From Negativicutes bacterium (GTDB lineage: Bacteria > Bacillota > JAAYKD01): DNA of 59,428 bases. Below are positions 217-22,563 of the stretch, one piece after another; positions within the stretch are counted from its first letter, which is position 1, and each line of letters starts with the position of its first letter. Position numbers and translations under genes: made by a program. Location: the NCBI GenBank assembly GCA_021372785.1, contig JAJFTT010000032.1, positions 1-59,428 on the forward strand, read 5' to 3'. Below the pieces are notes generated by a model. That model was not told where the DNA came from and made no database searches. It was given only the letters and a program-made list of their open reading frames with translations.

Positions 217-2664
217 TTATTCTGCTTTAAAACGCAGTTTGCCATCGCTGCAGCTGACCAATACTTTTTGTCCGTGCTGGATGCGGCCTTCCAGCAACTC
301 TTCGCTTAAGGCATCTTCTATCTGATGCTGAATCGCTCTACGCAGCGGCCGGGCCCCAAAGAGCGGATCAAATCCCGCTTTGGCTAACAGCTTCTTAGCT
401 TCCGGTTCCAATTCGATTTTAATATTGAATTCCTGCAAGCGTTTCGCTACATCTTTGAGCATGACATCAACAATGGCTTCGATCTCTGTCTCACTCAGTT
501 GCCGGAAAACAATGGTGTCGTCCACCCGGTTGAGAAATTCCGGACGGAAAACGCGTTTCAGTTCCTGGTTCAGGCGTTCTTTCATGGCTTCATATTCGGT
601 GTTTTCTACCTGAGAGGAAACGACAAAACCCAGGGAAGACTGTTTGCGGATGGTCTCGGCGCCGGCATTGGAGGTCATAATCACAATGGTATTGCGGAAA
701 TTAACCGTCCGGCCCAGAGAATCTGTCAGGATGCCGTCGTCCAACAATTGCAGCAAGACATTGAATACTTCCGGATGCGCTTTTTCAATTTCATCCAAAA
801 GCACCACACTATAGGGGTGCTGCCTGACTTTTTCCGTCAGCTGACCGCCTTCTTCGTAACCAACATAACCGGGAGGCGCTCCGATCAGGCGGGACACATT
901 ATGGCGTTCCATATACTCCGACATATCGATGCGAATCAGGGCATCCTCGCTGCCAAACATGGCTTCGGCCAGGGCTTTTGCCAATTCCGTTTTACCAACA
1001 CCGGTGGGACCCAGGAAGATAAAGGATCCGATCGGGCGTTTAGGATCTTTCAATCCCGCTCTGGCGCGCCGGATGGCTCTGGCGACAGCATTGACCGCTT
1101 CCTCCTGACCAATTACTCTCTTATGCAGTTCTTTTTCCAGATTCAGCAAGCGCTGACTGTCTTCTTGAGTCAGCCGCTCTACCGGCACATTCGTCCAGGA
1201 AGAGACAATATGAGCAATATCATCCGCTGTCACTTCCGGCCGCCCGCTGCTTTGCCGCTGTTTCCAATTTTGCCGAATGTTCTCCAGTTCAGTCCGCAGT
1301 TGTGCTTCCGCATCACGCAGCGCCGCCGCTTGTTCAAAAGCCTGGTTATTGATGGCTTCTTCTTTCTCGCTGCGCAATTTATTTAATTTCTCTTCTTTTT
1401 CTTTGACATCAGGCGGCGTAGTATAACTTTGCAGACGTACTCTCGAACCGGCTTCATCAATCAGGTCGATGGCTTTATCCGGCAGGAAGCGATCAGCAAT
1501 ATAGCGATCTGAAAGCCGGACCGCTGCTTCGATGGCTTCTTCTGTTATTATCACGCCATGATGCGCTTCGTAACGGTCACGCAAGCCTTTGAGAATTTCA
1601 ATCGATTGTTCGATGGTAGGCGGTTCCACCATGATCGGTTGAAAACGGCGCTCTAAAGCGGCATCTTTTTCAATATAGCGGCGATATTCTTTCAAAGTGG
1701 TGGCGCCGATGGTTTGCAATTCGCCGCGAGCCAATGCCGGCTTCAGGATATTGGAAGCATCGACTGCTCCCTCTGCTCCGCCTGCCCCTACCAGGGTATG
1801 CAATTCGTCGATAAACAAAATCACTTGTTTGGATGTTTTTACTTCCTCCAGCAACTTTTGCATCCGTTCTTCAAATTCACCGCGGTACTTGGTGCCGGAT
1901 ACTAAATTTCCCATTTCCAGAGCAACCACTCTCTTATCGCGCAGCGTTTCCGGCACTTGTCCAGCTACGATCATGCTGGCCAATCCTTCCGCAATAGCTG
2001 TTTTACCCACGCCCGGTTCGCCGATCAGCACCGGATTGTTCTTGGTACGGCGGGATAAAATCTGGATCACCCGCTCAATCTCCTTATCGCGGCCAATGAC
2101 CGGATCCAGTTTATTATCGGCAGCCAGCTTATTCAGGTCGCGCCCCATCTTATCCAATAACGGAGTCGCCGCTGCCTTTCTCTGTTTTTGATTGGCAGCG
2201 GATTTCTGATTTTCCGGCGGAACATAACCGCCGTCCAGCAAAGCCAAAATCGTTTGACGCAATTCCTCTAATGATACACCCTTATCGATCAGAATCCGGG
2301 CGCCGATGCCTTCGCCTTCCCGCGCCAAGGCCAAAAGCAGATGCTCCGTACCCACATAATTACTTTTCAGACTCACCGCCTCCTGAAAGGCGATCTCGAT
2401 CAGCCGTTTCACCCGCGGAGACGGCTGAATGGGAAAGCCGGATTTCTCTTCGCCGGCCGGGCTATATTCCGGCAGGGCTTCTTCAATCACTTCGGCGGTA
2501 ATTTGCATGCTTTGCAAAGCACTGGCTGCAATACTGTCTGCGCTTTTGGCCAAACCCCACAACACATGCTCGGTGCCAATTACGCTATGATTCATTTGTT
2601 CGGCTAAATTTTGTGCAGCCAATAGCGCTTGATTGGCGCGTTCGGTAAATTGTAGACTATACAT
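217..2664 (-). CDS. clpC: ATP-dependent Clp protease ATP-binding subunit ClpC
   Basis: AAA+ unfoldase of the HSP100 family that feeds proteins to ClpP in the cytoplasm. At 815 residues it has the family length. Order of domains: two Clp N repeats (about 1-145), first ATPase domain with Walker A GEPGVGKT at 215-222, a UVR-type middle segment near 425-460 as expected for ClpC rather than ClpB, and a second ATPase domain with GPTGVGKTE near 550. It is the last gene of ctsR-mcsA-mcsB-clpC and starts 2 bases after the mcsB stop. In Bacillus, McsB marks proteins with phosphoarginine and the ClpC N-domain reads the mark; the linkage here suggests the same. Confidence 0.97.
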
Positions 2665-2666
2665 GG

Positions 2667-3755
2667 CTACTCCTCCTGTTTTTCTTCCTGTTTCATTCTT
2701 GTTTGTGCCAGCAGACGGCGCATCACTGCGGCGCGCTGAACATCCCGCTGGTCGGCTGTGAGCGCTGCTCCCGACACTTGATTCAGCCAGGCCGGTTGCA
2801 GCTGCACCATCAAGCTGTTCAATTCCTGATAGCTCAGATGCTCCAACAGATTCAGTTCCACACCCAGCCTTAAGTCAGACAACTTTTCAGCCGCTTCTTT
2901 GCCATTCAGCAGCCAGGCACTGCTCAAAATTCCCAAAGTACGGCCGATCCGGTCGCGCAGTTGCAGCGGAATTTGCGCAAAAAGCTGCAAACGGGTTTTG
3001 CGCTCTTCTTCCACCACTTGCTTGACAATCGCCTGTAAATTCGTCAGAATCTCTTCTTCGGATTGTCCCAGTGAAATTTGGTTGGAAATCTGAAAAATCT
3101 GACCGATTGCCTCGGTGCCTTCTCCATAAAATCCGCGCACGACCATCCCCAATTGATTGATACCGGTGATAAAGGAACCAATTTTTTTACTGATTACCAG
3201 TGCCGGCAGGTGCACCATTACCGAAGCGCGCAGACCGGTGCCAACATTGGTGGGACAAGCTGTGATATAGCCGAATTCCTTGCTGAAAGCAATCTCCAAC
3301 TGTGCTTCCAGCAGATCGTCTATTTCGTTTGCCAGTTGCCAAGCTTGCTCCAACTGCAGACCGCTAAGCAATACCTGTAAACGAAGGTGATCTTCTTCAT
3401 TGACCATAATACTGACCGCTTCATCCTGACGCAGGATCAGAGCGGTGGATTCTGGCTTTTCCGCCATGACGGGGCTCATCAGGTGCTTATCAATTAAAAT
3501 CCTTTGTTGGTCGGGATTGAGATCCTGCAAACGGATCAGCTGCCAATTAGCTTTTGTCTTTTCACTGAGCAGCGGAAGCAGAGTCGTCAATTGAGCCAAC
3601 AACTTGGCGGTGTCCTCCGCTGTCTGATGTCCGGGAAATGTAAACTGACTGAGATTGCGCGCCAATCGGATCCGGGTTGACAGAATGACATCCTGATCAG
3701 GACCATTCTGCATCCAGAAAGTTGCCGCCTGGGCGTAATGCTGCTCTACAGACAT
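2667..3755 (-). CDS. mcsB: Protein arginine kinase McsB
   Basis: Guanido-kinase-like enzyme that phosphorylates arginines on proteins and in Bacillus also inactivates CtsR under stress. The 362-residue length is typical. Visible family signatures are the N-terminal ILSTRIRLARNL block, the ACPTNVGTGLRASVMVHLP catalytic block (the guanido kinase CPxNxGTGLRASV signature) and NQLGMVVRGFYGEG. It lies between mcsA (3 bases upstream) and clpC, so translation is probably coupled across the operon. Confidence 0.97.
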   Translation of the reverse strand: MSVEQHYAQAATFWMQNGPDQDVILSTRIRLARNLSQFTFPGHQTAEDTAKLLAQLTTLLPLLSEKTKANWQLIRLQDLNPDQQRILIDKHLMSPVMAEKPESTALILRQDEAVSIMVNEEDHLRLQVLLSGLQLEQAWQLANEIDDLLEAQLEIAFSKEFGYITACPTNVGTGLRASVMVHLPALVISKKIGSFITGINQLGMVVRGFYGEGTEAIGQIFQISNQISLGQSEEEILTNLQAIVKQVVEEERKTRLQLFAQIPLQLRDRIGRTLGILSSAWLLNGKEAAEKLSDLRLGVELNLLEHLSYQELNSLMVQLQPAWLNQVSGAALTADQRDVQRAAVMRRLLAQTRMKQEEKQEE

Positions 3756-3758
3756 GGC

Positions 3759-4289
3759 TTATTCCTCCTTCTGCGCGGACTGAGACAATTGCTTGATCTC
3801 GTCGCGTAAGGTTGCGGCGCGTTCAAACGCTTCTTCGCTGATCGCCTGCTGCAGCTGCTGCTTCAATTCAGCCAAACGATACTGACGCTGCAAGCCTTGA
3901 CCTGCCCGCAGCGGAATTTTACCTGTATGCTGATTGCTGCCGTGAATGCGTCGGAAGAGCGGCGGCAGATGCTCGCCGAAGGTAACATAGCATTGAGCGC
4001 AGCCGAAGCGCCCCTGACGTTTGAATTGATCAAAGGTCATACCGCAAAACGGGCAGGTCAGCGGATCGGCTTTTTCACCTTCTTCCGGTTTTGCTGAGGC
4101 AGTCTCCTGCATTAAACCGGAAAGTAAATGGTGCATAGAAAATTGAATGGGAAAAGCCAGATTGATACCAAACGCGCTATGCTTAGCAGCACAGGTTTCA
4201 CAAAGATGAAGTTCGATTTTTTGTCCGTTGATCATTTGTGTTAAGTGAACATTAGCAGTTTTTTGTTGACATTCCTGACAAAGCATCAT
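3759..4289 (-). CDS. mcsA: McsA, zinc-binding activator of McsB
   Basis: 176-residue partner of McsB. Two CxxC pairs are visible at the N-terminus (CQECQQK near 4-7 and CETCAAKH near 30), two more in the middle (CPFCGMTF and CAQCYVTF), and a UVR motif at the C-terminus (LKQQLQQAISEEAFERAATLRDEI). Zinc binding by these pairs and stimulation of McsB are known from Bacillus. The start ATG follows an AGGAGG site; a second ATG follows immediately. Ten bases separate it from ctsR. Confidence 0.96.
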   Translation of the reverse strand: MMLCQECQQKTANVHLTQMINGQKIELHLCETCAAKHSAFGINLAFPIQFSMHHLLSGLMQETASAKPEEGEKADPLTCPFCGMTFDQFKRQGRFGCAQCYVTFGEHLPPLFRRIHGSNQHTGKIPLRAGQGLQRQYRLAELKQQLQQAISEEAFERAATLRDEIKQLSQSAQKEE

Positions 4290-4298
4290 TCATTCCTC

Positions 4299-4769
4299 CT
4301 ATTCATTCTCGGTAGTTAACAAGGCCAGAATCATATTGCGTAAAATGGCAGCCCTCACCTGATCGCGCAGCGGCAGCGGAATGGTCAGACTTGATTGACT
4401 CATGGCAGACTGCATAATTGCTTTTTCCCGTTCGGAAATAATCTCTTCATCGGCGAGACGGTCACAAATATGATAGGCGCTTCCCGAATCGATCATCGAG
4501 GGCAGCTGATTGAGCAGCTGCCGCGACCAATGGCTGTTTTGATCGGAATACTGTATACGGGTAATACTGACATGTCCGCCGCCGCCTCGTCTGCTTTCCA
4601 CTAAGAATCCCCGTTCCGGTGTGAAGCGTGTTGTCAGTACATAATTGATTTGCGAGGGCACGCAAGAAAATTGCTCTGCCAGATTGCTGCGGACAATTTC
4701 CACAGTAGTGGAATCGGATTCCTCCACCAGGGCACGTAAGTATTGCTCAATAAGATCTGCAAGTGTCAC
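4299..4769 (-). CDS. ctsR: Transcriptional repressor CtsR
   Basis: Class III heat-shock repressor, 156 residues, with an N-terminal winged helix-turn-helix (SNLAEQFSCVPSQINYVLTTRFTPERGFLVESRRGGGGHVSI). The glycine-rich RGGGGHV wing is the temperature-sensing and DNA-contacting element in known CtsR proteins. The start is GTG with a GGGGAG site upstream. It is the first gene of the operon and sits directly downstream of its own operator, so autoregulation is expected. Confidence 0.97.
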   Translation of the reverse strand: MTLADLIEQYLRALVEESDSTTVEIVRSNLAEQFSCVPSQINYVLTTRFTPERGFLVESRRGGGGHVSITRIQYSDQNSHWSRQLLNQLPSMIDSGSAYHICDRLADEEIISEREKAIMQSAMSQSSLTIPLPLRDQVRAAILRNMILALLTTENE

Positions 4770-4844
4770 AAGAATTCTCCCCTTTCAAAAGCAGTATACC
4801 GAAGCAGGAAACGGTTAAAATCCGGATTCCTTTTTGTTTCTGAC

Positions 4845-4868
4845 TTTGACTATCTTTGACCTTTGACT
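4845..4868 (-). promoter_or_regulatory. CtsR operator (tandem heptads)
   Basis: On the minus strand the heptads AGTCAAA, GGTCAAA, (GAT), AGTCAAA lie in tandem; 4845-4861 is the classic arrangement of two heptads separated by three bases. It begins two bases downstream of the -10 box at 4871-4876, so bound CtsR would cover the transcription start. Confidence 0.93.
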
Positions 4869-4870
4869 CC

Positions 4871-4899
4871 AGTATAAACAATTTCAACCGGTTTGTCAA
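4871..4899 (-). promoter_or_regulatory. Sigma-A promoter of the ctsR operon
   Basis: Minus strand TTGACA (4899-4894), 17-base spacer, TATACT (4876-4871), about 100 bases upstream of ctsR. Near-consensus, with the CtsR operator immediately downstream. Confidence 0.92.
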
Positions 4900-4910
4900 G
4901 AGCAGAAAAC

Positions 4911-4961
4911 AAAAAACTGTATTAACAAAAGGATGGGGATCCTGTTGGTAAAACAGTTTTT
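4911..4961 (-). terminator. Terminator after the rhomboid gene
   Basis: Imperfect hairpin of about 22 base pairs with loop CCCC (arms AAAACTGT…GGAT and ATCC…ACAGTTTT) ending in a T run on the minus strand. It separates the rhomboid gene from the ctsR promoter; the A/T runs at both ends could make it work both ways. Confidence 0.8.
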
Positions 4962-4975
4962 ATAGAACCTTTTGC

Positions 4976-5707
4976 TCAATGGAATGTTTCGTCTGAGTCG
5001 GCATCATCTTGCCAAAAGTCCAAGGGTTCCGGATTGCGCTTTTTCGTCTGGTTATACCAGTAACCGACCGCCGCGCCAAATAGGAAACCTCCCACATGAA
5101 CCCAGTAAGCCACATTTTGCCCGGCACCGGCCATGACCTGACGTCCGCTGCTCACCTGCAGCAAAAACCAGATGCCCAGGTAAACAACTGCTGGAACATT
5201 GAAAGGGACCAAAAACAGCACAAAAAACGGAATGATCGTACGGATCTTCGCCCTGGGAAACATCATGAAATAAGCTCCCAAGACACCGGCAATGGCTCCG
5301 CTGGCTCCGATAACCGGCGTCATCGAAGCAGGTTCGGTAGCAATTTGCAGTAAATTGCCGATCAAACCGCTGCACAGATACATCAGCAAAAACCGCCAGC
5401 ATCCCAGTTTATCTTCTACATTATCCCCGAAAATCCAGAGATATAAAACATTGCCTAACAAATGCCCCCAACCACCATGAATAAATTGTGCGGTAACCAG
5501 AGTAAGCCAAAACGGAATTCCGGCAAATGGCCAGTCGGAAGCTCCACTGAAATAAGCCGGCGTCATGCCGTAAACACGATCGAGCAAGATCAGATCGCGT
5601 GCACTTAAGGTAGTTGACCAAATAAAAATCAGGGTATTCACGGCAATTAAAATTAAAGTCATAACCGGCCAATGTTTGGCACGGATACTGTCCCGAACCG
5701 GAATCAT
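4976..5707 (-). CDS. Rhomboid family intramembrane serine protease
   Basis: 243-residue multi-pass membrane protein. An N-terminal membrane helix (MTLILIAVNTLIFIW) is followed by a loop segment and the rhomboid core: HGGWGHLLGNVLYLWIFG, the catalytic serine motif GASGAIAG, and the catalytic histidine in YWVHVGGFLFGAAVG in the last helix. Both dyad residues are present, so it is probably active. The C-terminal tail is acidic. Substrate unknown. It is followed by its own terminator and lies 33 bases downstream of the rRNA methyltransferase gene. Confidence 0.9.
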   Translation of the reverse strand: MIPVRDSIRAKHWPVMTLILIAVNTLIFIWSTTLSARDLILLDRVYGMTPAYFSGASDWPFAGIPFWLTLVTAQFIHGGWGHLLGNVLYLWIFGDNVEDKLGCWRFLLMYLCSGLIGNLLQIATEPASMTPVIGASGAIAGVLGAYFMMFPRAKIRTIIPFFVLFLVPFNVPAVVYLGIWFLLQVSSGRQVMAGAGQNVAYWVHVGGFLFGAAVGYWYNQTKKRNPEPLDFWQDDADSDETFH

Positions 5708-5740
5708 CCACTCTCACCCCGCAATCCATTCCTAACCAAT

Positions 5741-6916
5741 TCAGACAATTTGCAGAATCACATTCTTTAAATAATGGCTTTCAGGATAACCCAATTGCTG
5801 CGGATGATCCGCTCCCTGCGACCGCCATTCAACCAAACGCAGGCGGCAATGCGCGTCGACCGAAGCCTCGACCAACATCTCCTGAAACATCTCACTGCTC
5901 ATATGGAAAGAACAGGAATTGGTCACCAAAAAGCCCCCCGGTTTCAGGAGTTTCATCGCCCTTAAATTGATTTCCTTGTAACCGCGATAGGCGCTTTTCA
6001 AACTGCTTTTGCTTTTGGCAAAGGCAGGAGGGTCGAGAATAATCACATCATAGAGGCGTTTCTCGTTGCTGTACTGCTTTAAGGCATCAAAAACATTCGC
6101 AACGGAGAAGTTGATTTTGTTTTCCACCCGATTCAATTTTGCATTCAGCCTCGCTTGCTCTACCGCGGCTTCGGAAATATCCAAAGCATCCACCGTCGCG
6201 GCGCCGTAGGCCGCCGCATGAATGGCAAACGCACCAGTATGACAAAAGCAATCCAGGACGATCGCATCTTTTACGAAAGGCGCCAAAGCGGCGCGGTTGG
6301 CACGCTGATCATAAAAATAACCTGTTTTCTGACCTTCCGCAATATCCACCATAAACTTCAGCTGATTTTCGGTGATCATGATTTGCGCCGGACCCGGCTC
6401 GCCGACCCATTTCTGATAGAGTTCGCAGCCTTCCAATAACCGGACGCGCGCATCATTGCGCAGAAAAATAAACTGCGGCTGAAACACCTGCTGCAAACCC
6501 TTGATCACCGCATCCAAGCGGACCTCGATGCCAAGCGTCAGACACTCCACCACCAAGGTAGTGCCAAAGCGGTCTACCACCAGCCCGGGCAGATCATCCG
6601 CCTCGGCAAAGACCAGACGGCAGTCGTTCACACCGGGAAGGAACTGATCGCGCCAGTGTTTTGCGGTCTTGAGGCGCTCCAGAATACTGGCTTCATCAAA
6701 CAGTTCACCTTGCGTGTAACCGGTCACGCGGACGGTGATCAGAGAATTGTCATTGAAATATCCCATCGCCAAAAAATAACCGTTGTGGTTGACGATCTCC
6801 ACGTCGCAGCCCGGTGTCAATTCGCCTTCTGTTTTTAAAATTTCATTGCCATAAACCCAGGGATGACCCTGTTCCAGGCGTTTTCTCCGATCACGCTTTA
6901 AATATACTTTTGCCAA
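5741..6916 (-). CDS. Class I rRNA large-subunit methyltransferase (RlmI/YwbD type)
   Basis: 391 residues. An N-terminal PUA-like domain (AKVYLKRDRRKRLEQGHPWVYGNEI) is followed by a RlmI-like segment and a Rossmann SAM-binding domain (VLDCFCHTGAFAIHAA, near residue 220) with the NPPY-like motif DPPAFAKSK. The family modifies 23S rRNA; E. coli RlmI makes m5C1962, while the Bacillus relative YwbD appears to have a different target, so the exact site cannot be given. The CxCHTG/NSCS cysteines resemble those of the m5C class. Confidence 0.9.
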   Translation of the reverse strand: MAKVYLKRDRRKRLEQGHPWVYGNEILKTEGELTPGCDVEIVNHNGYFLAMGYFNDNSLITVRVTGYTQGELFDEASILERLKTAKHWRDQFLPGVNDCRLVFAEADDLPGLVVDRFGTTLVVECLTLGIEVRLDAVIKGLQQVFQPQFIFLRNDARVRLLEGCELYQKWVGEPGPAQIMITENQLKFMVDIAEGQKTGYFYDQRANRAALAPFVKDAIVLDCFCHTGAFAIHAAAYGAATVDALDISEAAVEQARLNAKLNRVENKINFSVANVFDALKQYSNEKRLYDVIILDPPAFAKSKSSLKSAYRGYKEINLRAMKLLKPGGFLVTNSCSFHMSSEMFQEMLVEASVDAHCRLRLVEWRSQGADHPQQLGYPESHYLKNVILQIV

Positions 6917-7089
6917 AGTGATTCGCTCCTTAAGAGTGTTTACTCATTTTTTTGGAATTGCTGTTTTCAGCTTGTTTCCAGTATACCCTATTATAAGCAT
7001 AAGGGAAAGAGTCTGTTCTCTAAATATTTACAAGACGGTAAAAGATGTCTATGGTTCTCTGATACGGTCTTGCTTACGACACAATTTCC

Positions 7090-7131
7090 TTTGAGTCTGC
7101 TTTCCCCCCTGGCAGGGTATTCAGACTCAAA
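7090..7131. other. Hairpin (10-bp arms)
   Basis: TTTGAGTCTG and CAGACTCAAA enclose a 22-base loop that itself holds CCCTGCCAGGG-type pairing. No T run follows on either strand, so terminator function is uncertain. It lies just downstream of the interrupted small gene at 7143-7430. Confidence 0.5.
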
Positions 7132-7142
7132 GAAGATCCCTC

Positions 7143-7430
7143 TCATTCATTGACATCAATTTCCCGAATATACCAATAAAGGGCGCACTTTGCATCCTCC
7201 AGGCTCAAATTGCTATTATAAGCGATTTTTTCTTTTCCGCTGAACACTTTCCAGTGCGCGGTATTATCAGCTTTTTTCTTCTGCACGCTTGTTTCTTCTT
7301 TTAAGTACTTCCGATATTCGTGGTGGGACTCTGCTTTTTGCTTGGTCAGATAATATCCAAGAGAACGCTGATCATTTCTTTGCTATTCCTCAAGACCTTC
7401 AATTACCTTGCACAGTTGGTAAATCTTCAT
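7143..7430 (-). pseudogene. Small gene interrupted by an in-frame TAG
   Basis: The minus strand has a start ATG at 7430 preceded by GAGGTG at good spacing. The reading frame runs 15 codons (MKIYQLCKVIEGLEE), meets TAG at 7385-7383, and then stays open for 79 more codons to TGA. The second part is well formed, charged and soluble (…KVFSGKEKIAYNSNLSLE… ending YWYIREIDVNE). One substitution would give a 95-residue protein. No family recognised. It may be a recent pseudogene or a base-call error. Confidence 0.55.
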
Positions 7431-7475
7431 ACCAGATACACCTCTTTCATCAATGAGTGAATGATCAGAATAAAA

Positions 7476-7691
7476 TTGCTTTCTCAGAATAAGACGGAAG
7501 TTTCAAAAATTAATCTCCTGTCTGACTAAAAATATCAATATAATACTGTTTATTTTAGGTTCAATAAACTTAAATGGATTCGTTCTGCTCAACCGTATTT
7601 GCATCGGATAAATGATTCATATTACGACACGAATCTACATAATTCATTGGAAATTAATTCCGAAAACTTCCGTCTTATTAATAGAAAGAAA
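7476..7691. repeat. MITE-like inverted-repeat element
   Basis: Two 43-base arms, 7476-7518 and 7649-7691, are inverted copies with about 34 of 43 matches, including a perfect 16-base core (AATAAGACGGAAGTTT and its complement) and a matching AATTAAT block. They enclose about 130 AT-rich bases with no gene. The size and structure fit a miniature inverted-repeat element or a very large hairpin. No clear target duplication is visible. It ends 46 bases before the start of the next gene, so it may carry or disturb that gene's promoter. Confidence 0.6.
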
Positions 7692-7737
7692 AATGCAAAG
7701 CCAAACAAATAAAAAAAAGAAATGGCAGGTGAAAGGA

Positions 7738-8511
7738 ATGAATGAATATAAACCGGTTCCGGATATACCGGAACTAACGATTCGCGATGCGCTCCTGCTC
7801 AACGAGGCAGCCAAAGTGATTGTGCAACGCCGCGCCGCTGCTTTTGACACTGCCATGCAAGCAGAACTCTCGCCGGCAGAGTTGCAGCAAATGCAACGAA
7901 AAATCCATACCGCGCAATTACAGCAAAGCCTGCTTGCTTTAGGCAAACGGACGGCAATGGTGACAGCCGGTCTGCTTTTCGTCATCCTGCTGGGGGTCGG
8001 CGGTTATCAGCAAGTAGAAGCATTCCGTCTGATCGTCAATGATGTTTATTATCAAGTATTTCCGCAATATACGGAGTATCATTTTCAAAATGAAGACGAA
8101 GCCTTGCAAAACGCAAATGACAACTCGACGAATCCTGCCTCACAGATAGCCAGGGATCGGCGACTGGAGTTAAAATCGGGCGGCGTGCTGAGCTGGGGCG
8201 AGCTTCCGGCAGGGTATAAGTTGGATACAATCACCGATACCGTCGCTTCTGTTTCTATCATCTTTCGGAATAGTAGCGATAAGATCAGTTTCCAACTATT
8301 GCCAACATCAGCCGGCGTTGTGCTGGATACGGAAGATGCAGAAGTCAGTGATATAGAGCTTAGTGAAAGTCGCGCTCAGTTGATTTGTAAAGGCGACAGT
8401 GTCAGTTTATTGTGGCTGTTCGATCAGAAAATGTATGTGTTAGTAGCAACGAATTTAGAGAAAGAAACCCTGATCGCTTTTGCCGAATCAATTAAAATTT
8501 CATATGAATGA
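7738..8511 (+). CDS. Single-pass membrane protein, DUF4367-like (anti-sigma type)
   Basis: 257 residues from the ATG at 7738, which has AGGTGAAAGG just before it; a longer frame from 7612 would start inside the inverted repeat and is rejected. The cytoplasmic N-terminal part (about 80 residues) is helical, one membrane segment follows (AMVTAGLLFVILLGVGGY), and the outside part ends in a DUF4367-like beta domain (SWGELPAGYKLD… to …LEKETLIAFAESIKISYE). In related genomes such proteins often sit beside an ECF sigma factor; none is present here, so the usual upstream partner may have been lost. Function inferred only from architecture. Confidence 0.65.
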   Translation: MNEYKPVPDIPELTIRDALLLNEAAKVIVQRRAAAFDTAMQAELSPAELQQMQRKIHTAQLQQSLLALGKRTAMVTAGLLFVILLGVGGYQQVEAFRLIVNDVYYQVFPQYTEYHFQNEDEALQNANDNSTNPASQIARDRRLELKSGGVLSWGELPAGYKLDTITDTVASVSIIFRNSSDKISFQLLPTSAGVVLDTEDAEVSDIELSESRAQLICKGDSVSLLWLFDQKMYVLVATNLEKETLIAFAESIKISYE

Positions 8512-8765
8512 TCAATAGAGGAATCCTATCCGGTTACTATCGGTACATATATCACTTCATTCACAGGGATGATATTGCTGGAATATAACTATAAAAAAAT
8601 ATATTATTAAATATTTATGAAACTTTATGTAGATTACAGCTTTTATGGAAATTTTTATTTATCTGTATCGTCTATATAGCAGAAGCCGCAAGAGAAAGAG
8701 GAAATGAATTTATTTGGAAGCAAAATGGTATGCACTATTTCTGATTAAATTCAATTGATGCTTAA

Positions 8766-9190
8766 CAAACTTGTAAACAACAGTGCCTAAGGGAGTTGTC
8801 GGGTTCGGTGCTGGCTTGGAGTAATAATGCTGTAACAAACACGAGTGTGTCTGTTAGTTTTATCGATCCTTTTTTTCATCGGATACCGCTGAGTTTAACG
8901 TTACTTCAGGTTATGCCTTTGATAATAACACCATGAAAACCCAGCAAAGTCAAATCGTCTTTCAGGAAGTCAGTAGTGATCCATCAATACCCGTCACTCA
9001 AGTTATTTCGGATATTGACGTTTCTCAGCATCTATTGAGAATATCTGGCGCCGATTATAATCAAAATGAAACTGAAACCTCTTTTTCCGGAATTTCTGCT
9101 GTTGCAGCTGAGAACAGAAATAATCCTATTGCTGTTTCTACAGGTCATTGGATCGGTGCGTATTTTCCAATCACAGGACAGCTTGGCTAG
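8766..9190 (+). pseudogene. Frameshifted remnant of a serine/threonine/asparagine-rich protein
   Basis: One frame reads …VLAWSNNAVTNTSVSVSFIDPFF up to a run of seven T (8870-8876); the reading then continues in another frame as SSDTAEFNVTSGYAFDNNTM and on to the stop at 9190 (…IGAYFPITGQLG). The residue style is the same on both sides of the T run, which argues for one gene broken by a slip. The part from 8933 is open as 85 codons but has no ribosome site. Upstream, 8512-8765 holds only a 14-codon frame (8704-8748) with an AGAGGAA site, possibly the old start. No family recognised. Confidence 0.45.
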
Positions 9191-14318: not shown

Positions 14319-14921
14319 ATGAACCTGATTACCATCGACAATTGCGGTCTCGCTTGCCCGCAACCGGTGATCAACACAAAAAAAGCATTGGACAGCCTCT
14401 CAGCCGGACAAAGTTTGATCAGCATTGTTGACAATGCTGCTGCCAAAGAAAATGTCACCCGGTTTGCTATAAACAACGGCTGTACAGTCAATGTGGAAGA
14501 AAAAAACGGCATCTATTCTCTGACTCTGACCAAGAGCAAAAGCATGCCGGCTGCAGCAGCCCCTCCGGCAGAAATCCCCAGTACCGGCGGCAAAGTGATT
14601 TTTGTGCGCAGCAATCGGCTGGGAACGGGCAGCGATGAGCTTGGCAGCCTCTTGATCAAATCTTTTTTCTATGCGGTCAGTCAAACAGCGGACTACTTGC
14701 CGGCAAAAATCGTTCTGATCAACAGCGGCGTAAAACTAGCGGTCACAGATTCACCCGTATTGCAAGATCTGCAAGCCTTGGCGGCAGCCGGTGTGGAAGT
14801 GTTGGCCTGCGGTACCTGTCTTGATTTTTACGGACTCAAAGATCAGCTTGCTGTCGGGCAGATCTCCAATATGTACAGCATCTATGAAGTCCTGGCCGGC
14901 CATGCTGTGCTCACCCTCTAA
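14319..14921 (+). CDS. yedF: Selenium metabolism-associated protein YedF
   Basis: 200 residues. The N-terminal TusA-like domain (about 1-70) carries the cysteine motif CGLACPQPV; the C-terminal part (about 88-200) is a DsrE-like fold with VIFVRSNRLGTGSDELGSLLIKSF and the ACGTCLDFYG cysteine pair. This two-domain form is found mostly in genomes with selenium use, where a role in selenium or sulfur delivery is assumed but not proved. No selD, selA or selB lies in the window. GAGGTG precedes the start. The metallophosphoesterase gene follows at 14 bases. Confidence 0.85.
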   Translation: MNLITIDNCGLACPQPVINTKKALDSLSAGQSLISIVDNAAAKENVTRFAINNGCTVNVEEKNGIYSLTLTKSKSMPAAAAPPAEIPSTGGKVIFVRSNRLGTGSDELGSLLIKSFFYAVSQTADYLPAKIVLINSGVKLAVTDSPVLQDLQALAAAGVEVLACGTCLDFYGLKDQLAVGQISNMYSIYEVLAGHAVLTL

Positions 14922-16296: not shown

Positions 16297-17445
16297 TTGA
16301 AAGCGATTGTCAACGGAACACTCTATACTATGGTCAACGGTATCATCGAAAACGGTACGATTCTGATCGACGCAGGCAAAATTATCGCCATTGGTAAAAA
16401 CATTACCCTGCCGGAAGGTAGCGAAATCATCTCAGCCAAAGGTTGCACGGTTCTGCCTGGCCTGATCGATGCCGACTGCAAAGTGGGTATTTTTGAAGAA
16501 GGTCAGGGCCCCATTGGAAATGATACCAACGAACCTGTTTCCTTGGGAGCCGAATTCCGTGCTTCCGATGCTACCTGGTGGGAAGATGTGGCTTTTGATG
16601 ATTGCCGCAAAGCCGGAATTACCGCTTTGTCCATCGGTCCCGGCAGCGCTAACCTGATCAACGGTCAGAGCTTTGTCACCAAGACAGCGCCGGGTGTGAT
16701 CGATCATCAGATTGTGCGCGCCTTTGCCGGTTTAAAAATCAATATCTGCGGCACCAAAAGTAATCAGCATGACCGCACCATGGATATCGCCTCTCTGCAG
16801 GCTCAATTGCAAAAAGCCAAAGAATTGGCCGCCAAGAATCAAAAGCAAATCGAAAAGGGAGAGGCTCCGGAAGAAAATTTGAAACTGGATCCTCTGATTG
16901 CCTTGCTCAATGGCAGCAACTTTGCCCGCATCAATGTATTTGCCAACCACGACATTTTCAACGCGCTCGAACTGGCCAAGGTCTGGGGTTTCCCTCTGGT
17001 TTTAGAACGCTGCTACGAAGGTCATCTTGCACTGGAAGAAATCGTCGCCTCCGGCTGCAGTGTGATTGCCGGCCCCACATTCATCAACCGGGTGGGCAGC
17101 GCAAAGAACTTGTCCCTCAAGATGCCGGGCGTTCTGGCCAAAGCCGGTGTCAAAGTCGCTCTCTGCAGTGATCATCCCACCCTGCCCAGTGAAAATTTGG
17201 CCACACAGGCGGCGCTTTGCTGCCGGGATGGCATGCCGGAAGAATTGGCGCTGCAAGCCATCACCTCGGTGGCTGCCGAAATCTTAGGCGTAGCCGAGCG
17301 AATCGGCTCTCTGGCAGTCGGTAAAGATGCCGATCTCGCCATTTTCAGCGGACATCCTTTCAAAACCGCAACGCAGTGTCTGGCTACGCTGATCAACGGT
17401 GAATTTGTTTACCAGGCAGAAAAAGGCGGTGCATGTTCATGCTAG
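16297..17445 (+). CDS. Degenerate COG1228-type amidohydrolase paralogue 1 (metal ligands lost)
   Basis: 382 residues; TTG start eight bases after AGGAGG. It has the amidohydrolase frame: a beta-sandwich N-terminus (VNGTLYTMVNGIIENGTILI), PGLID at the first barrel strand and the C-terminal IGSLAVGKDADLAIFSGHP. Where active relatives have HxH it has DADCK; the GENPK lysine block is missing; HAHRADDI is replaced by VFANHDIFNAL and IEH by LERCYEGH. Only the SDHP near the last ligand remains. It is therefore probably not a hydrolase and may be a structural or regulatory partner of the next gene, with which it overlaps. First of four co-directional paralogues. Confidence 0.85.
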   Translation: MKAIVNGTLYTMVNGIIENGTILIDAGKIIAIGKNITLPEGSEIISAKGCTVLPGLIDADCKVGIFEEGQGPIGNDTNEPVSLGAEFRASDATWWEDVAFDDCRKAGITALSIGPGSANLINGQSFVTKTAPGVIDHQIVRAFAGLKINICGTKSNQHDRTMDIASLQAQLQKAKELAAKNQKQIEKGEAPEENLKLDPLIALLNGSNFARINVFANHDIFNALELAKVWGFPLVLERCYEGHLALEEIVASGCSVIAGPTFINRVGSAKNLSLKMPGVLAKAGVKVALCSDHPTLPSENLATQAALCCRDGMPEELALQAITSVAAEILGVAERIGSLAVGKDADLAIFSGHPFKTATQCLATLINGEFVYQAEKGGACSC

Positions 17446-18635
17446 CAATTACCAATGCGACTCTGGTTACGATTTCCGGTCCGATCATAAAAAAGGGAAC
17501 GATCATCCTCGACGGCGGTAAAATCGTCGCAGTGGGAAAAGACCTGACGATTCCGTCTGAAGCAGAAGTCATCGACGCGGAAGGCAAATATGTCATGCCG
17601 GGTCTTGTGGAAGCGCACTGCCATATCGGTGTGATGGATTTCGATCGCAATGACGATGACAATCAGTTTGATGCGGACGGTGCGCCCAATGGCAGCGCCG
17701 GTTTCGGTCCGGCCGTTACACCGGAATTAATGAGTTATTATAGCTTCAACCCGCGTCATGTACAGGTGAAGCAGTCTCTGGCAGCCGGTGTCACAACCAT
17801 GCTGACCCGTCCGGGTTCCGGTAAGATCATCTCCGGCATGGGTATGGTGGTAAAAACCTACGGCAAAAACCGCAAAGAAATGGTTCTGCTCAATCCGGCA
17901 GAGGTCAAGATGGCGTTGGGTGAAAATCCCAAGCATAACTTTGGCTCCCGCAATCAGTCTCCTTCCACCCGTATGGGCAGCGGCGCCCTGCTGCGTGATG
18001 CGTTCATCAAAGCGAAAGCGTATATGGCCAAACGGGAAAAAGATCCCGAAACTCCGCTCAATTTCCAAATGGAACCTCTGGTCAAATTGCTGAAAGGCGA
18101 ATTGGTGGCGCATGTGCATGCTCATCGCGCCGATGATATCATGATGGCCCTGCGCGCTTCCGATGAGTTCGGTTTCAAATTAACCATTGAACATGCTTCC
18201 GAGGCACATCTGCTGCTGGATGAACTGAAAAAGCGCAACGTCCCCTGCATCCTCGGTCCCTCCATGGCTCGCACGAAAGTCGAAACCGCCCGCAAGGATT
18301 TTGCTTCTGCCGGCATTTTGGAACGAGCCGGGATCAAAGTCTGCATTACCACCGATGCCGGTGTGGTGCCGCAGGAATATTTACGCACCTGCGTCTGCCT
18401 CTGCCACCGTGCCGGCATGAGCGAAGCGGGTGCACTGCGTGCCATGACACTGACCTCCGCCGAAATCATTGGTGTAGCCGACCGTCTCGGTTCTCTGGAT
18501 GTCGGTAAAGACGCCGACGTTTTGGTGCTGAACGGCCATCCTCTGGAATTGATGTCGCAGGTTGAACAGGTTTATGTCAATGGCAGACTCGCTTTTGACA
18601 TTGATCGGGATAAAGAAGCTTGGGAGATGGCTTAA
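17439..18635 (+). CDS. COG1228-type amidohydrolase paralogue 2 (intact metal site)
   Basis: 398 residues from the ATG at 17439, nine bases after the AAAGGCGG site; an ATG at 17433 is less well spaced. It overlaps the upstream gene by 7 bases. The metal-site blocks are all present: PGLVEAHCHIG (HxH), VKMALGENPKH (likely bridging lysine), VAHVHAHRADD, IEHASEAHLL and TTDAGVV. C-terminus IGVADRLGSLDVGKDADVLVLNGHP. The family includes imidazolonepropionase and Zn-dependent Xaa-Arg/Pro dipeptidases; substrate cannot be read from sequence. Co-expression with the degenerate paralogue 1 suggests a hetero-oligomer. Confidence 0.88.
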   Translation: MLAITNATLVTISGPIIKKGTIILDGGKIVAVGKDLTIPSEAEVIDAEGKYVMPGLVEAHCHIGVMDFDRNDDDNQFDADGAPNGSAGFGPAVTPELMSYYSFNPRHVQVKQSLAAGVTTMLTRPGSGKIISGMGMVVKTYGKNRKEMVLLNPAEVKMALGENPKHNFGSRNQSPSTRMGSGALLRDAFIKAKAYMAKREKDPETPLNFQMEPLVKLLKGELVAHVHAHRADDIMMALRASDEFGFKLTIEHASEAHLLLDELKKRNVPCILGPSMARTKVETARKDFASAGILERAGIKVCITTDAGVVPQEYLRTCVCLCHRAGMSEAGALRAMTLTSAEIIGVADRLGSLDVGKDADVLVLNGHPLELMSQVEQVYVNGRLAFDIDRDKEAWEMA

Positions 18636-18647
18636 GGAGTGATTATG

Positions 18648-19796
18648 ATGTTCGCAATCAAGAATGCCCGCCTTTTTACCATGTCGCACGGCAGAGTGGA
18701 AAACGGCAGTCTGCTGATCCGGGACGGTATAATCGCAGCGGTCGGCGCAGAGATTGAGATTCCGGCTGATTGTGCCGTGCTGGACGCCTGCGGCAAAGTT
18801 CTGACACCCGGCTTGATCGAGGCCTGCGGCCGCCCCGGCTTACACGAAGAAGTTGTTGGTGCCATTGGTGCCGATGAAGATGAAACCCAAGAAAAAATGG
18901 GCGCCTATTTACGCGCTCTGGACGGAATTTTACCCAATGATCCCTCTTTTGACGATGCTTTGCGCGGTGGGGTAACCACTGTCAATATCTGTCCCGGCAA
19001 CTCTGCCATCGTAGCCGGTCAGAGTGTTATCGTGCATACCGCCGGCAGTCCGATCATCGATCGCCGCATCCTCAAGCAGCCTTTTGCTTTGTTCGTCAAC
19101 CTGGTAGGCGGCGGCAACCCCATGACAGGCTTGCGTGACCGCAGCGAAATGGTGGCAAAACTGGTCGGCGAGCTGCAGAAAGCCAAAGAATGGCTGGCCA
19201 AATGCAATCAAGCGCTTGCGGAAGGCAAAGCGGCGCCGGAGGCAGGCTTCCGCCTGGCGCCAATGGTTTCTGTCCTGCAGGGCGAAATGCCGCTGATCAT
19301 GCAGGCAGTCTATCTGCACGATATTCTTAATGCCCTGGAATTGGCGGAGCAATGGGGTTTTCGGTTGATTTTGCAGCGCGTCAGCGAAGCCTATTATTGC
19401 GTGGAAGATTTGCTGCAGGCGCAGGTGCCGATGATCGTCGGACCGATTCTGATGAATCGCCGCGGTTTGTTTAACACCACTTCACATAAAACACCGGGAA
19501 TTCTGCAGCAAGCCGGTTTGAAATTCGCCATTTCCACCGAACACCCGCAAACCGGGATTGAATACCTGGTGACAACCGCCGCCATCGCCAATCGGGAAGG
19601 CATGGATGAAGAGGAAGCGCTGAAAGCCATCACCCTCTACCCCGCCCAATTGCTTGGGCTCGACAGTCAGCTCGGTTCTCTGGATACGGGTAAAAAAGCA
19701 GATCTGGTCTTATGGACCGACCATCCCTTTGAAACCAAGAGTTACGTCGAACAAGTGTGGATCAATGGTCAGCCGGTTTACGAAAGGGGGAAATGA
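18648..19796 (+). CDS. Degenerate COG1228-type amidohydrolase paralogue 3 (metal ligands lost)
   Basis: 382 residues from the ATG at 18648, eight bases after AAGGAG (another ATG at 18645). It resembles paralogue 1 more than 2 or 4: shared GQSxxxxTA, ALVPMxxxL-type segment, and the block HDILNALELAEQWGFRLIL. HxH is replaced by EACGRPG, the lysine block is absent, the IEH position reads LQRVSEAYY, and the last aspartate block reads STEHP. It is likely a second non-catalytic partner. Translation follows paralogue 2 by 12 bases. Confidence 0.85.
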   Translation: MFAIKNARLFTMSHGRVENGSLLIRDGIIAAVGAEIEIPADCAVLDACGKVLTPGLIEACGRPGLHEEVVGAIGADEDETQEKMGAYLRALDGILPNDPSFDDALRGGVTTVNICPGNSAIVAGQSVIVHTAGSPIIDRRILKQPFALFVNLVGGGNPMTGLRDRSEMVAKLVGELQKAKEWLAKCNQALAEGKAAPEAGFRLAPMVSVLQGEMPLIMQAVYLHDILNALELAEQWGFRLILQRVSEAYYCVEDLLQAQVPMIVGPILMNRRGLFNTTSHKTPGILQQAGLKFAISTEHPQTGIEYLVTTAAIANREGMDEEEALKAITLYPAQLLGLDSQLGSLDTGKKADLVLWTDHPFETKSYVEQVWINGQPVYERGK

Positions 19797-19797
19797 A

Positions 19798-21003
19798 ATG
19801 GCAAAATACGCAATCACAGCCGCGCGGATCTATACGGTTGATACTGCCGGTGTACTGGATAACGGTATTCTCCTGGTGGATGGCAGTAAAATCATCGCCG
19901 TAGCGGACCATCTCAGCATTCCTTCCGACTTCGAACTGGTTGATTTCGGCCGTCAGCAAATCCTGCCCGGCATGGTAGAAGCGCACAGCCATTTGGTGGC
20001 GCACGACTGGAATCAAAACGAGTATGCTGAAAGCGAGTTGAACGGCACCTCGCTTGGCATTGCCTGTTCGCCGGATGTCGATTATTTTTATCACTTTAAC
20101 CCGCGTCACCGTCATCTCAGCGATGCTCTGGCGGGAGGCGTTACCACCGCCAATATTTTACCCGGCAGCGGCAAGGTCATTACCGGCGTCGGTTTTGCCG
20201 CCAAAATGGCCGGTAAGACCAGAGAAGATTTGCTGCTCAAGCGCAATACCGGCGTAAAGATCGCCTTGGGCGAAAACCCGAAGCGGGCTGTCGGTTCTAA
20301 AGGCGTGATCCCAACAACCCGGATGGGCTCTGCTGCCGTGCTGCGTGAAGCTCTCTGCAAAGCGCAGGAGTATATGCTAAAAAAAGAAGCTGCGCTGGCG
20401 GAAGGCAAAGAATTCGCCATCAATACCCAGTTGGAGCCGCTGATTCCCTTACTGAAACGGCAAGTGCCCGGCAAAATTCACGCGCACCGGGCGGACGATA
20501 TGATGACCGCCATGCGGATCGCCGATGAATTTCAGCTGATCATCACCCTCGAGCATACCACCAGCGGCCATTTACTGACGGATGAGATCAAAAAGCGCCA
20601 GATCATGTGTACGCTGGGACCGACTTTGGGTTCCCGCGGCAAACAGGAAGTCCATGCCAAACAGTATCAGACCGCCGCTTTGCTGGAGCAAGCCGGCATT
20701 CTCTTTTCCTTCACCACCGATGCTTCGGTGATGGCGATTGAACTGCTGCGTTTGAGCGGTTCATTGGCCTGGAAAGAAGGCTGCTCGGAAGCTACAACCC
20801 TGAAAGCGCTGACCCTGAACGGCGCAAAAATTACCGGTGTGGCCGATCGGGTCGGATCGCTGGCGGTTGGTAAGGATGCCGATTTTGCAGTTTACAACGG
20901 CCATCCCCTTTCCATTCGCAGCAGCTGTATCGAGACCTGGGTCAACGGAGAAAAAGTTTGGGATAAAGCCACCTGGCTGGAGCCCTGGCAGCGCGGATAC
21001 TAA
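19798..21003 (+). CDS. COG1228-type amidohydrolase paralogue 4 (intact metal site)
   Basis: 401 residues from the ATG at 19798, one base after the upstream stop and preceded by AAAGGGGG; a longer frame from 19654 would lie inside paralogue 3 and is rejected. The metal-site blocks match paralogue 2: PGMVEAHSHLVAHD, VKIALGENPKRAVGS, KIHAHRADDM, LEHTTSGHLL and TTDASVM. The order degenerate-intact-degenerate-intact suggests that a gene pair was duplicated. The operon ends next to a decayed insertion sequence, and no terminator is visible. Confidence 0.88.
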   Translation: MAKYAITAARIYTVDTAGVLDNGILLVDGSKIIAVADHLSIPSDFELVDFGRQQILPGMVEAHSHLVAHDWNQNEYAESELNGTSLGIACSPDVDYFYHFNPRHRHLSDALAGGVTTANILPGSGKVITGVGFAAKMAGKTREDLLLKRNTGVKIALGENPKRAVGSKGVIPTTRMGSAAVLREALCKAQEYMLKKEAALAEGKEFAINTQLEPLIPLLKRQVPGKIHAHRADDMMTAMRIADEFQLIITLEHTTSGHLLTDEIKKRQIMCTLGPTLGSRGKQEVHAKQYQTAALLEQAGILFSFTTDASVMAIELLRLSGSLAWKEGCSEATTLKALTLNGAKITGVADRVGSLAVGKDADFAVYNGHPLSIRSSCIETWVNGEKVWDKATWLEPWQRGY

Positions 21004-21019: not shown

Positions 21020-21956
21020 CGTTGTTGTAAAAATGAACCTAACGTTCACCGGCGGTTTTAAACTGTCATATTCATGAAATCTGTGAAGGTAATACATTTC
21101 CGCTTTTAGCGTACCCTAAAACGCCTCCATCGGACCGTTGTCGATGCAACAATCAGCACGGGACATGCTCTGTGTCATACCCGCAACGTCCAATTTGGCT
21201 CTAAAGACCTTACTTGTATATTGATACCCATGGTCACTGTGAAACAATGGCTTTGCATCAGGGTATTTTTGAATCGCCGTATCAAAGGTGGCAAATGCAA
21301 GTTGATTATCATTCCGATGCCCAATGACATAGGAAATGACGCTCTTGTCTTTCAGGTCAAGAATTGCACTGAGATACATTTTATCGCCATTTTCATACTT
21401 GAACTCCGTAACATCCGTCAGCCATTTCTCATTGAGATTCTCTGCCACGAAATTACGGTACAAAAGATTCTCCGCCGCGGTTCTGGCGTAGATTTTATGT
21501 AGTTTGGTCTTTCTCTGCGGATGACTGATTTCAACCTGATTGTTCTCATTACTTTGTATATGCGTTTTAGATTGCAGTGCAGTCCGCAACGGCGCTCCGG
21601 ATTGAGCCGCATCCGGCGATATCCGAATATACCGCTGGCTACCTGAAAAGCTGACATATGAGGTTAATCAATTCGGTATCCTTAGCTTCTTGTTTGGATT
21701 AGTTGCGCCGCAACCATTTGTAGTAGGACGAACGCTTGAGCTTGAGTATGTCGCAAAGCGCGCGGATGGGATATTTCTCTCTTCGTTCAGATTTTCTACC
21801 GCTAGGTATTTACTTTCAAGGCGCACCCGACTGAATCCACATCCCACCCCCTTTCGAGCGCCTCCAATTTTTTTAGCAGTTCATTCTCATCTGAAGCCGC
21901 AGGTTTTCGGCTTCCTTCAATTTCAGCTGAGCGCGTAGTTTCTCTAATTCGTTCAT
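21020..21956 (-). pseudogene. IS3-family orfB (integrase) remnant
   Basis: Read with frame changes, it gives an IS150-type orfB: coiled N-terminus (MNELEKLRAQLKLKEAENLRL near 21956), then KLKRSSYYKWLRR near 21700-21740, GIFGYRRMRLNPERRCGLHC and NLKRIYKVMRTIRLKSVIRR (21500-21630), then in another frame NEKWLTDVTEFKYENGDKMY, LSAILDLKDKSVISY and HSDHGYQYTS (21160-21420). DDE residues are visible. At least two frameshifts and a stop in place of tryptophan (MEAF-stop-GTLKAEMYYLHRF near 21117) break it, and the C-terminus is replaced by unrelated sequence. Confidence 0.85.
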
Positions 21957-21965
21957 AGAAGCTTC

Positions 21966-22563
21966 TTATTTTCGCTTGCCCCTGTGGTCGATAAAACCGC
22001 CGGCTCCGGTCTTTTCGTACTTTTTAATCCATCCGTAAATCTGCTGGTATGATATCCCGTACTTTTCAATTGCTTTACCATAGTCGTTGTTGTTGGCTAT
22101 GCAATGGTTGACTATAGCTATGCGCTCATCCGGCGTTGTCTCACGCCTTTTCGTCATGTAGATTGCACCTCCATTGTTGAGCCGGCTGAAATCTTCCTGA
22201 CTATTATACTTCTTTATCCATCGCCGAACTATATGTTCATCACTTAGGGCATATTTCAAGCAAAGACCTTTCATGGATGAACTGCCGGATAAATATCTCT
22301 GAGCCACTTTGCGTTTCAATTCAGTACTGTACTTCCTACTTTTCACCTGCAAAACCACTCCCTCCGGCCTGTAAACTTTATACAGAATTACAGAATCTGC
22401 GCAGCTTAGATTCTGTAATTCCAAGTTCTTGCACTATCTCCGCGGCTCCCATTTCACCACGGAGATAGCTCTCAACCATTACAATTATTGTTTCAGATAA
22501 AATCTGACTTCTTCGTGGTACAAATATACTCCCCTTTCTGTAGCAGTGTTTTTTTATTTCCAC
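21966..22563 (-). pseudogene. IS3-family orfA (helix-turn-helix) remnant
   Basis: Two overlapping frames make up one orfA. The first (22563-22378) reads VESYLRGEMGAAEIVQELG then ITESKLRR; the second (to 21966) reads SRKYSTELKRKVAQRYLSGS, RRWIKKYNSQEDFSRLNNGG and ends with a second helix-turn-helix GKAIEKYGISYQQIYGWIKKYE. The frame breaks at the inverted repeat 22385-22421. Confidence 0.85.
22385..22421. repeat. Perfect 14-bp inverted repeat at the orfA break
   Basis: GAATTACAGAATCT and AGATTCTGTAATTC flank nine bases. It lies exactly where the orfA frame changes and looks like a locally templated inverted duplication. Confidence 0.7.

Follow-up and report, generated by a model that had tools for sequence, protein, structure and literature searches.

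Why does a bacterial genome keep two amidohydrolase genes that have lost their metal ligands, each directly beside a paralogue in which the ligands are intact? The question is raised by a stretch of DNA of 59,428 nucleotides from a Negativicutes bacterium (contig JAJFTT010000032.1 of assembly GCA_021372785.1; the whole stretch is named the window here), in which one forward-strand block at positions 16297-21003 contains four amidohydrolase open reading frames of the TM0814 type (PDB 3ooq, presumably TM0814 itself), genes 1 to 4, without any internal stop. An earlier sequence-only reading, made without database searches, had described these tandem genes as a degenerate-intact-degenerate-intact series, and the four open frames and the alignment of the ligands agree with it. 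The interpretation offered there is of the right type and partly supported. It missed the recurrence of the pattern in other genomes and a reciprocal loss, in which genes 2 and 4 lack a loop motif that genes 1 and 3 retain, and this reciprocity is the best clue to the mechanism; the genes may encode heteromeric hydrolases, a proposal whose chances are judged about even, in which the intact chain would hold the metals and the ligand-less chain would lend the loop in trans.

The set of metal ligands (HxH, Lys, His, His, and Asp) is found in a single chain in genes 2 and 4 and in neither gene 1 nor gene 3. In particular, genes 2 and 4 retain HxH, GENPK, HAHRADD, IEH or LEH, and TTDA, the ligands of gene 2 being H60, H62, K165, H227, H229, H252, and D306. 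Gene 1 shows DCK at HxH, a deletion across GENPK, NVF at HAH, and LER at IEH, and retains the beta8 Asp in CSDHP; gene 3 shows CGR at HxH, GGGNPM with Met in place of Lys, QAV at HAH, LQR at IEH, and STEHP, in which the beta8 Asp is replaced by Glu. The absence of HxH, the GENPK Lys, HAH, and IEH from genes 1 and 3, already claimed in the sequence-only reading, holds for all four motifs, with the small correction that the beta8 Asp remains in gene 1. To judge from these residues, the two genes are homologues of the TM0814/3ooq-type amidohydrolases, but not members of the group as enzymes. The loss of ligands is not chance decay because it is common to the sister genus (genome G001) and because genes 1 and 3 share identical replacements at columns of the ligand shell (H238R, D218H, R225E, A149N, and K267G).

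The reciprocal character of the losses emerges from 114 reference columns whose invariance across 24 solitary homologues is 95% or more, with the loop residues given in gene 1 numbering and the gene 2 residue numbers of this comparison running one ahead of protein P0002. Twenty-five of these columns are kept in genes 2 and 4 and lost in genes 1 and 3, among them every ligand but the beta8 Asp, and just one of the 25 lies in the loop that links beta1 to alpha1. Conversely, 16 columns are kept in genes 1 and 3 and lost in genes 2 and 4; seven (E67, D76, E79, R88, A89, D91, and D97) are in the loop, and H293 and P294 of the DHP motif also belong to this group. The loop contains 14 invariant columns, and finding these seven among them is an enrichment with a hypergeometric p of 5.5e-4 that is somewhat flattering, the loop having been chosen after the table was seen. 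The loop motif E..D.NE..RA.D..D is present in gene 1, nearly so in gene 3 (N78D), and gone from genes 2 and 4; in gene 2 the changes are E to D, D to N, N to S, E to A, R to M, A to S, D to Y, and D to H, and the replacements E67D, D91Y, D97H, and H293A are shared with gene 4. If the loop served only the metal site of its own chain, nothing would oblige a ligand-less chain to retain it, and a metal-bearing chain could hardly lose it; if it served the site of the neighbour, both losses would become tolerable once the two chains were always made together.

On the proposed mechanism, the array would encode two paralogous heteromers, most simply gene 1 with gene 2 and gene 3 with gene 4. Genes 2 and 4 would carry the metal centre of a TM0814-type amidohydrolase, and the pseudoenzyme encoded by gene 1 or gene 3 would supply its acidic and Arg-containing beta1-alpha1 loop across the subunit interface, thereby completing or shaping an active site that the intact chain alone could no longer finish. 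The starting point was probably a homo-oligomer able to work by itself; once its gene had been duplicated, long ago, each copy would have dropped what the other still provided until the pair became obligate, and the obligate pair would then have been duplicated whole before the two genera split.

The history of the genes is compatible with this course. Pairwise identity is 40% between genes 1 and 3 and 45% between genes 2 and 4 versus 28-33% for the cross pairs, in accord with the closer likeness of 1 to 3 and of 2 to 4 that had been reported from the sequence. In G001, the only other genome sampled from this taxonomic family, the orthologues of genes 1, 2, and 3 follow one another as in the window on a contig of 3.5 kb, which breaks off within gene 3 and matches JAAYKD010000012.1 of a Bacillota metagenome-assembled genome, and the gene 4 orthologue is located at the end of a separate small contig; gene 1 and its orthologue are 71% identical. 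A scan of named genomes with one sequence as query matched only this sister assembly and an amidohydrolase that is not related. In a tree of 99 rows, genes 1 and 3 and genes 2 and 4 form two clades, each supported at 100/100 and with the sister-genus orthologues inside, and both clades recur in a second, 65-row tree (100/99 for each); the two clades are not mutual sisters, and the deep placements are weakly supported. The unequal pair was thus duplicated as a unit, with both members kept, before the two genera split, a pair duplication that the sequence-only reading had already proposed and with which trees and orthologues agree. Since the replacements are shared within genes 1 and 3 and within genes 2 and 4, the ligand loss and the loop loss would most simply both have preceded this duplication. 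The window genome (2.1 Mb in 74 contigs) has ten family members, namely the four of the array and six with all ligands, among which there are two further tandem pairs.

The degenerate genes are under purifying selection. The nonsynonymous divergence (dN) between the two genera is 0.22-0.23 for gene 1, 0.11-0.16 for gene 2, 0.22-0.24 for gene 3, and 0.20-0.23 for gene 4, and is 0.12-0.20 for five intact paralogues used as controls in the same two genera. Synonymous divergence (dS) has reached saturation in almost every comparison, so that an exact dN/dS is not measurable; the two finite Nei-Gojobori values, both from controls, correspond to ratios of 0.05-0.06. These dN and dS values are incompatible with a ratio near 1, and the relaxed selection of which it would have been the sign is not borne out.

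The association of degenerate with intact genes extends beyond the array. Family members occur in 206 of 399 sampled genomes of the phylum (E 1e-40); degenerate genes were sought in these 399 genomes with gene 1 as query, and in two small families with the degenerate genes of those families as queries. All 12 degenerate genes found, in eight genomes, adjoin an intact gene (the partner in G374 is cut by a contig end): genes 1 and 3 with two G001 orthologues, two in G002, one each in G103, G332, and G374 (f57), and, in f127, one in G311 and two in G354. Conversely, 54 of 54 solitary homologues retain six of six ligands, in a set that excludes the gene of G374 and a gene fragment located at the edge of a contig. 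Every gene of the first type that was found thus sits beside one of the second and no solitary one was met, in a search that solitary, divergent degenerate genes may escape. Order varies, since G354 has a degenerate-intact-degenerate triplet and G002 an intact-degenerate-intact one.

Parsimony on the 65-row tree, with G002 left out, requires three ligand-loss changes, and the approximately unbiased (AU) test rejects a single clade of the first nine degenerate genes (p-AU 0.029); pairwise joins of the window genes with those of f57/f127 (0.22) or of G002 (0.11) stand. The degenerate genes of G354 are located in a different region of the same tree. A single loss common to all degenerate genes was rejected on the p-AU value and on this placement, and at least three separate ligand losses are likely on the phylogenetic evidence. 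As further observations on these sets, the G354 triplet directly follows a DUF6754 protein and three Pfam-less membrane-like proteins, with an M20 peptidase next on the opposite strand; G311, unusually, has expanded the family to 12 members, some of them in tandem pairs and three intact ones forming a triplet; and the intact-degenerate sets of G002, a genome that shares its taxonomic order with that of the window, are very divergent and carry different replacements (PGLILPVCSIG, VNAY, IHGAY), their intact members having HCE or HCQ for HAH.

Position 97 allows the reciprocal pattern to be followed in other tandem sets. Every complete solitary gene has an acidic residue there, and one tandem member often lacks the acid, with His in genes 2 and 4 and in the second gene of the C36 type, Gln in the second gene of the L106 type, Gly in the intact partner of f127, whose degenerate partner keeps the Asp, and Thr in the intact gene of G354, which sits between two degenerate chains with Asp. 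Among the 48 tandem chains of the 65-row set, nine have lost only ligands, 17 only the acid, and none both (Fisher p 0.018, uncorrected for relatedness); an independent-pairs test of tandem status versus D97 loss had too few contrasts. The family also shows apparent intermediates, in which both chains carry metal ligands and one already lacks D97. That reciprocal loss repeatedly converted homo-oligomers into obligate heteromers, with one composite site per pair and with the pair then duplicated in the window genome, is put forward tentatively, its chances falling somewhat short of even.

Other pairs with both sets of ligands were observed in the same survey. An intact-intact pair common to both genera (loci L009 and L062) has a second member without E67 and D97, and is flanked by a threonine-aldolase-like gene and by genes that, from a look at their sequences, are presumably those of a phosphate butyryltransferase and a butyrate kinase. 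The tandem pairs of f53, f104, and f11 (L036, L042, L049, L052, L053, L055, L056, L059, L084, and L089) have overlapping genes, keep ligands and an acid at 97 in both chains, and form separate, co-inherited, mirrored clades in the tree. In the f127 pairs at L144, L146, and L152 neither chain has the acid at 97, and a shifted Asp (INMLAAD or INMLADD) may substitute for it.

Besides the retrospective choice of the loop and the uncorrected relatedness, several observations weigh against a loop lent in trans. In G002 the intact chain keeps the acid at 97 and the degenerate partner has Glu, so that there is no reciprocity; the intact partners in f57 show only the mild change D97E; and the intact-intact pairs at L144 and L146 lack the acid in both chains. 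Two fusions were also modelled with AlphaFold2, one of genes 2 and 3 by read-through, possible since the gene 2 stop and the gene 3 start are in frame (these two may not be the true pair), with a mean predicted local distance difference test score (pLDDT) of 84, a predicted template modelling score (pTM) of 0.53, and a pLDDT below 50 for the gene 2 loop at 67-88, and one of an f57 intact-degenerate pair (pLDDT 85, pTM 0.56). Both fold their halves well, and the relative placement of the halves is not confident, with about eight second-half rows and no positive control; MAFFT put nearly all single-gene rows onto the first half. The models are perhaps best read as uninformative, rather than as counting against a heteromer.

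The alternative that survives best is that the degenerate chain is only a structural or regulatory partner that adds nothing to the site, the loop change in genes 2 and 4 being an unrelated adaptation to substrate. This view accounts equally well for the constant neighbourhood, for the purifying selection, and for the duplication of the pair, the G002 pairs lack the reciprocal pattern, and pseudoenzymes that activate a paralogue and lend no residues exist, such as the prozyme of AdoMetDC (PMC5201418); it is nonetheless rather unlikely, as it leaves unexplained why genes 1 and 3 keep exactly the loop residues gone from genes 2 and 4 and why the same split at position 97 recurs in f127 and G354. 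It is improbable that genes 1 and 3 are free-standing proteins that have taken on another function, for instance the binding of a ligand or a reaction that needs no metal, and merely share an operon with genes 2 and 4: the fold and a remodelled yet conserved pocket do persist, given the identity between the genera, and gene 1 retains the beta8 Asp and the DHP His, but no solitary degenerate gene is among those found, the loss occurred in several lineages always beside an intact paralogue, and the pair or triplet order recurs. A decay of genes 1 and 3 into pseudogenes after duplication is very improbable and, even with 43 of the 114 invariant positions gone in gene 1 and 49 in gene 3, is contradicted by the open frames, the overlap and array order conserved in two genera, and a dN near that of the intact paralogues with dS saturated.

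The array is compact (Table 1): genes 1 and 2 overlap by 7 nucleotides, an overlap also present in G001, genes 2 and 3 are 9 nucleotides apart if the ATG is used, and genes 3 and 4 are separated by one. The spacing of 7 bases or closer given in the sequence-only reading is therefore correct for the first and last junctions and, with the ATG start, not for the middle one. This tight spacing makes a single operon likely; a promoter and terminator scan gave nothing usable at the array.

Table 1. Positions of the genes, motifs, and neighbouring features discussed, in the window or in the other loci named.
Feature	Sequence	Position	Strand	Description
Gene 1	window	16297..17445	+	degenerate amidohydrolase, 382 amino acids; TTG start behind AAGGAGG
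Asp-Cys-Lys replacing HxH, gene 1	window	16474..16482	+	
Beta1-alpha1 loop, gene 1	window	16495..16587	+	residues 67-97; E67, D76, N78, E79, R88, A89, D91, D97 match solitary homologues
Gene 2	window	17439..18635	+	intact-ligand amidohydrolase, 398 amino acids; further in-frame ATG at 17433
HxH, gene 2	window	17616..17624	+	
Gene 3	window	18645..19796	+	degenerate amidohydrolase, 383 amino acids; further in-frame GTG at 18639
Beta1-alpha1 loop, gene 3	window	18846..18941	+	residues 68-99; motif E, D, D (for N), E, R, A, D, D
Gene 4	window	19798..21003	+	intact-ligand amidohydrolase, 401 amino acids
TusA-DsrE fusion gene	window	14319-14921	+	two genes upstream of the array; then a metallophosphoesterase gene
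Transposase pieces	window	21116-22424	-	integrase core and helix-turn-helix, probably IS3 type; about 110 bp downstream of gene 4
Intact-intact pair, both genera	L009	3804-9302		
Intact-intact pair, both genera	L062	5381-10806		
Pair without acid at 97 (f127)	L144	1486-3819		
Pair without acid at 97 (f127)	L146	317-2640		
Pair without acid at 97 (f127)	L152	317-2637		
Triplet with upstream genes (G354)	L156 (G354:C14:8000-22000)	2423-8827		
Degenerate-intact-degenerate triplet (G354)	L156	5346-8827		
Intact-degenerate set (G002)	L065	1-2225		
Intact-degenerate set, with the triplet (G002)	L066	1-3126		
Intact-gene triplet (G311)	L078	5793-9327		

All four genes match PF01979 and PF07969 above cut-off, and the closest solved relative is 3ooq from Thermotoga maritima, with end-to-end alignments (phmmer E 4e-77 for gene 2 and 2e-47 for gene 1, the two genes covered by the single-chain PDB comparison) and a TM-score of 0.91, normalised to the target, for the gene 2-gene 3 model. 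NCBIfam gave no equivalog above its cut-off for the array proteins and therefore no substrate name can be assigned; the literature search found no paper on TM0814 or 3ooq and nothing on tandem amidohydrolase pseudoenzymes. The surroundings of the array, with TusA/DsrE and metallophosphoesterase genes upstream and transposase remnants downstream, give no functional pointer. Elsewhere, family members have as neighbours M42 and 5-oxoprolinase-type CT domains, M20 several times, M24, M55, and asparaginase II, a recurrence of peptidases that is a raw tally with no background comparison, and no constant neighbour gene was found across the family loci; these neighbours hint loosely at a hydrolytic role in the degradation of peptides or amino acids.

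Pairs of an enzyme and a pseudoenzyme paralogue are a known kind, found here in an uncharacterised amidohydrolase family and with reciprocal loss. Such pairs are known singly, and here one bacterial family seems to make them repeatedly; with apparent intermediates still present, the steps from homomer to obligate heteromer become directly testable. The annotation of both genes of a pair as plain amidohydrolase hides a likely two-subunit enzyme, and co-expression offers a handle for finding the activity of a widespread family. With respect to 3ooq, the closest solved relative of both gene types, the difference is that ligands and loop motif belong there to one chain, and here genes 1 and 3 are without the ligands and genes 2 and 4 without the loop motif.

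In Trypanosoma brucei, the active S-adenosylmethionine decarboxylase (AdoMetDC) is partnered by a catalytically dead paralogue, the prozyme (PMC5201418); this eukaryotic system has an unrelated fold and its activation occurs by relief of autoinhibition. The pseudo-dihydroorotase (pseudo-DHO) of Pseudomonas aspartate transcarbamoylase is a chain of the amidohydrolase superfamily that lacks the zinc ligands and is an essential subunit (PMC7053772); its partner is the transcarbamoylase and not an active paralogue, and its role is in assembly. The analogy with this system drawn in the sequence-only reading is loose, given that the dihydroorotase serves a different enzyme and the likely partner here is its own paralogue; no aspartate transcarbamoylase gene is present among the array neighbours (TusA/DsrE, metallophosphoesterase, and transposase genes). 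A precedent for the trans geometry within the superfamily is N-acetylglucosamine-6-phosphate deacetylase (NagA), whose active sites lie where the two subunits of the dimer meet, one subunit providing every metal ligand and its partner an Arg that binds the substrate (PMC6016474); it differs in being a homodimer of identical chains from another branch of the superfamily. The closest working parallel is offered by the M16B peptidases, the mitochondrial processing peptidase alpha/beta and the bacterial enzymes encoded by two-gene operons, whose fold and chemistry are unrelated and whose heterodimer is proven, that of the array being inferred; they join homologous active and ligand-less chains, and the alpha chain, devoid of zinc ligands, contributes other necessary residues (PMC11266112).

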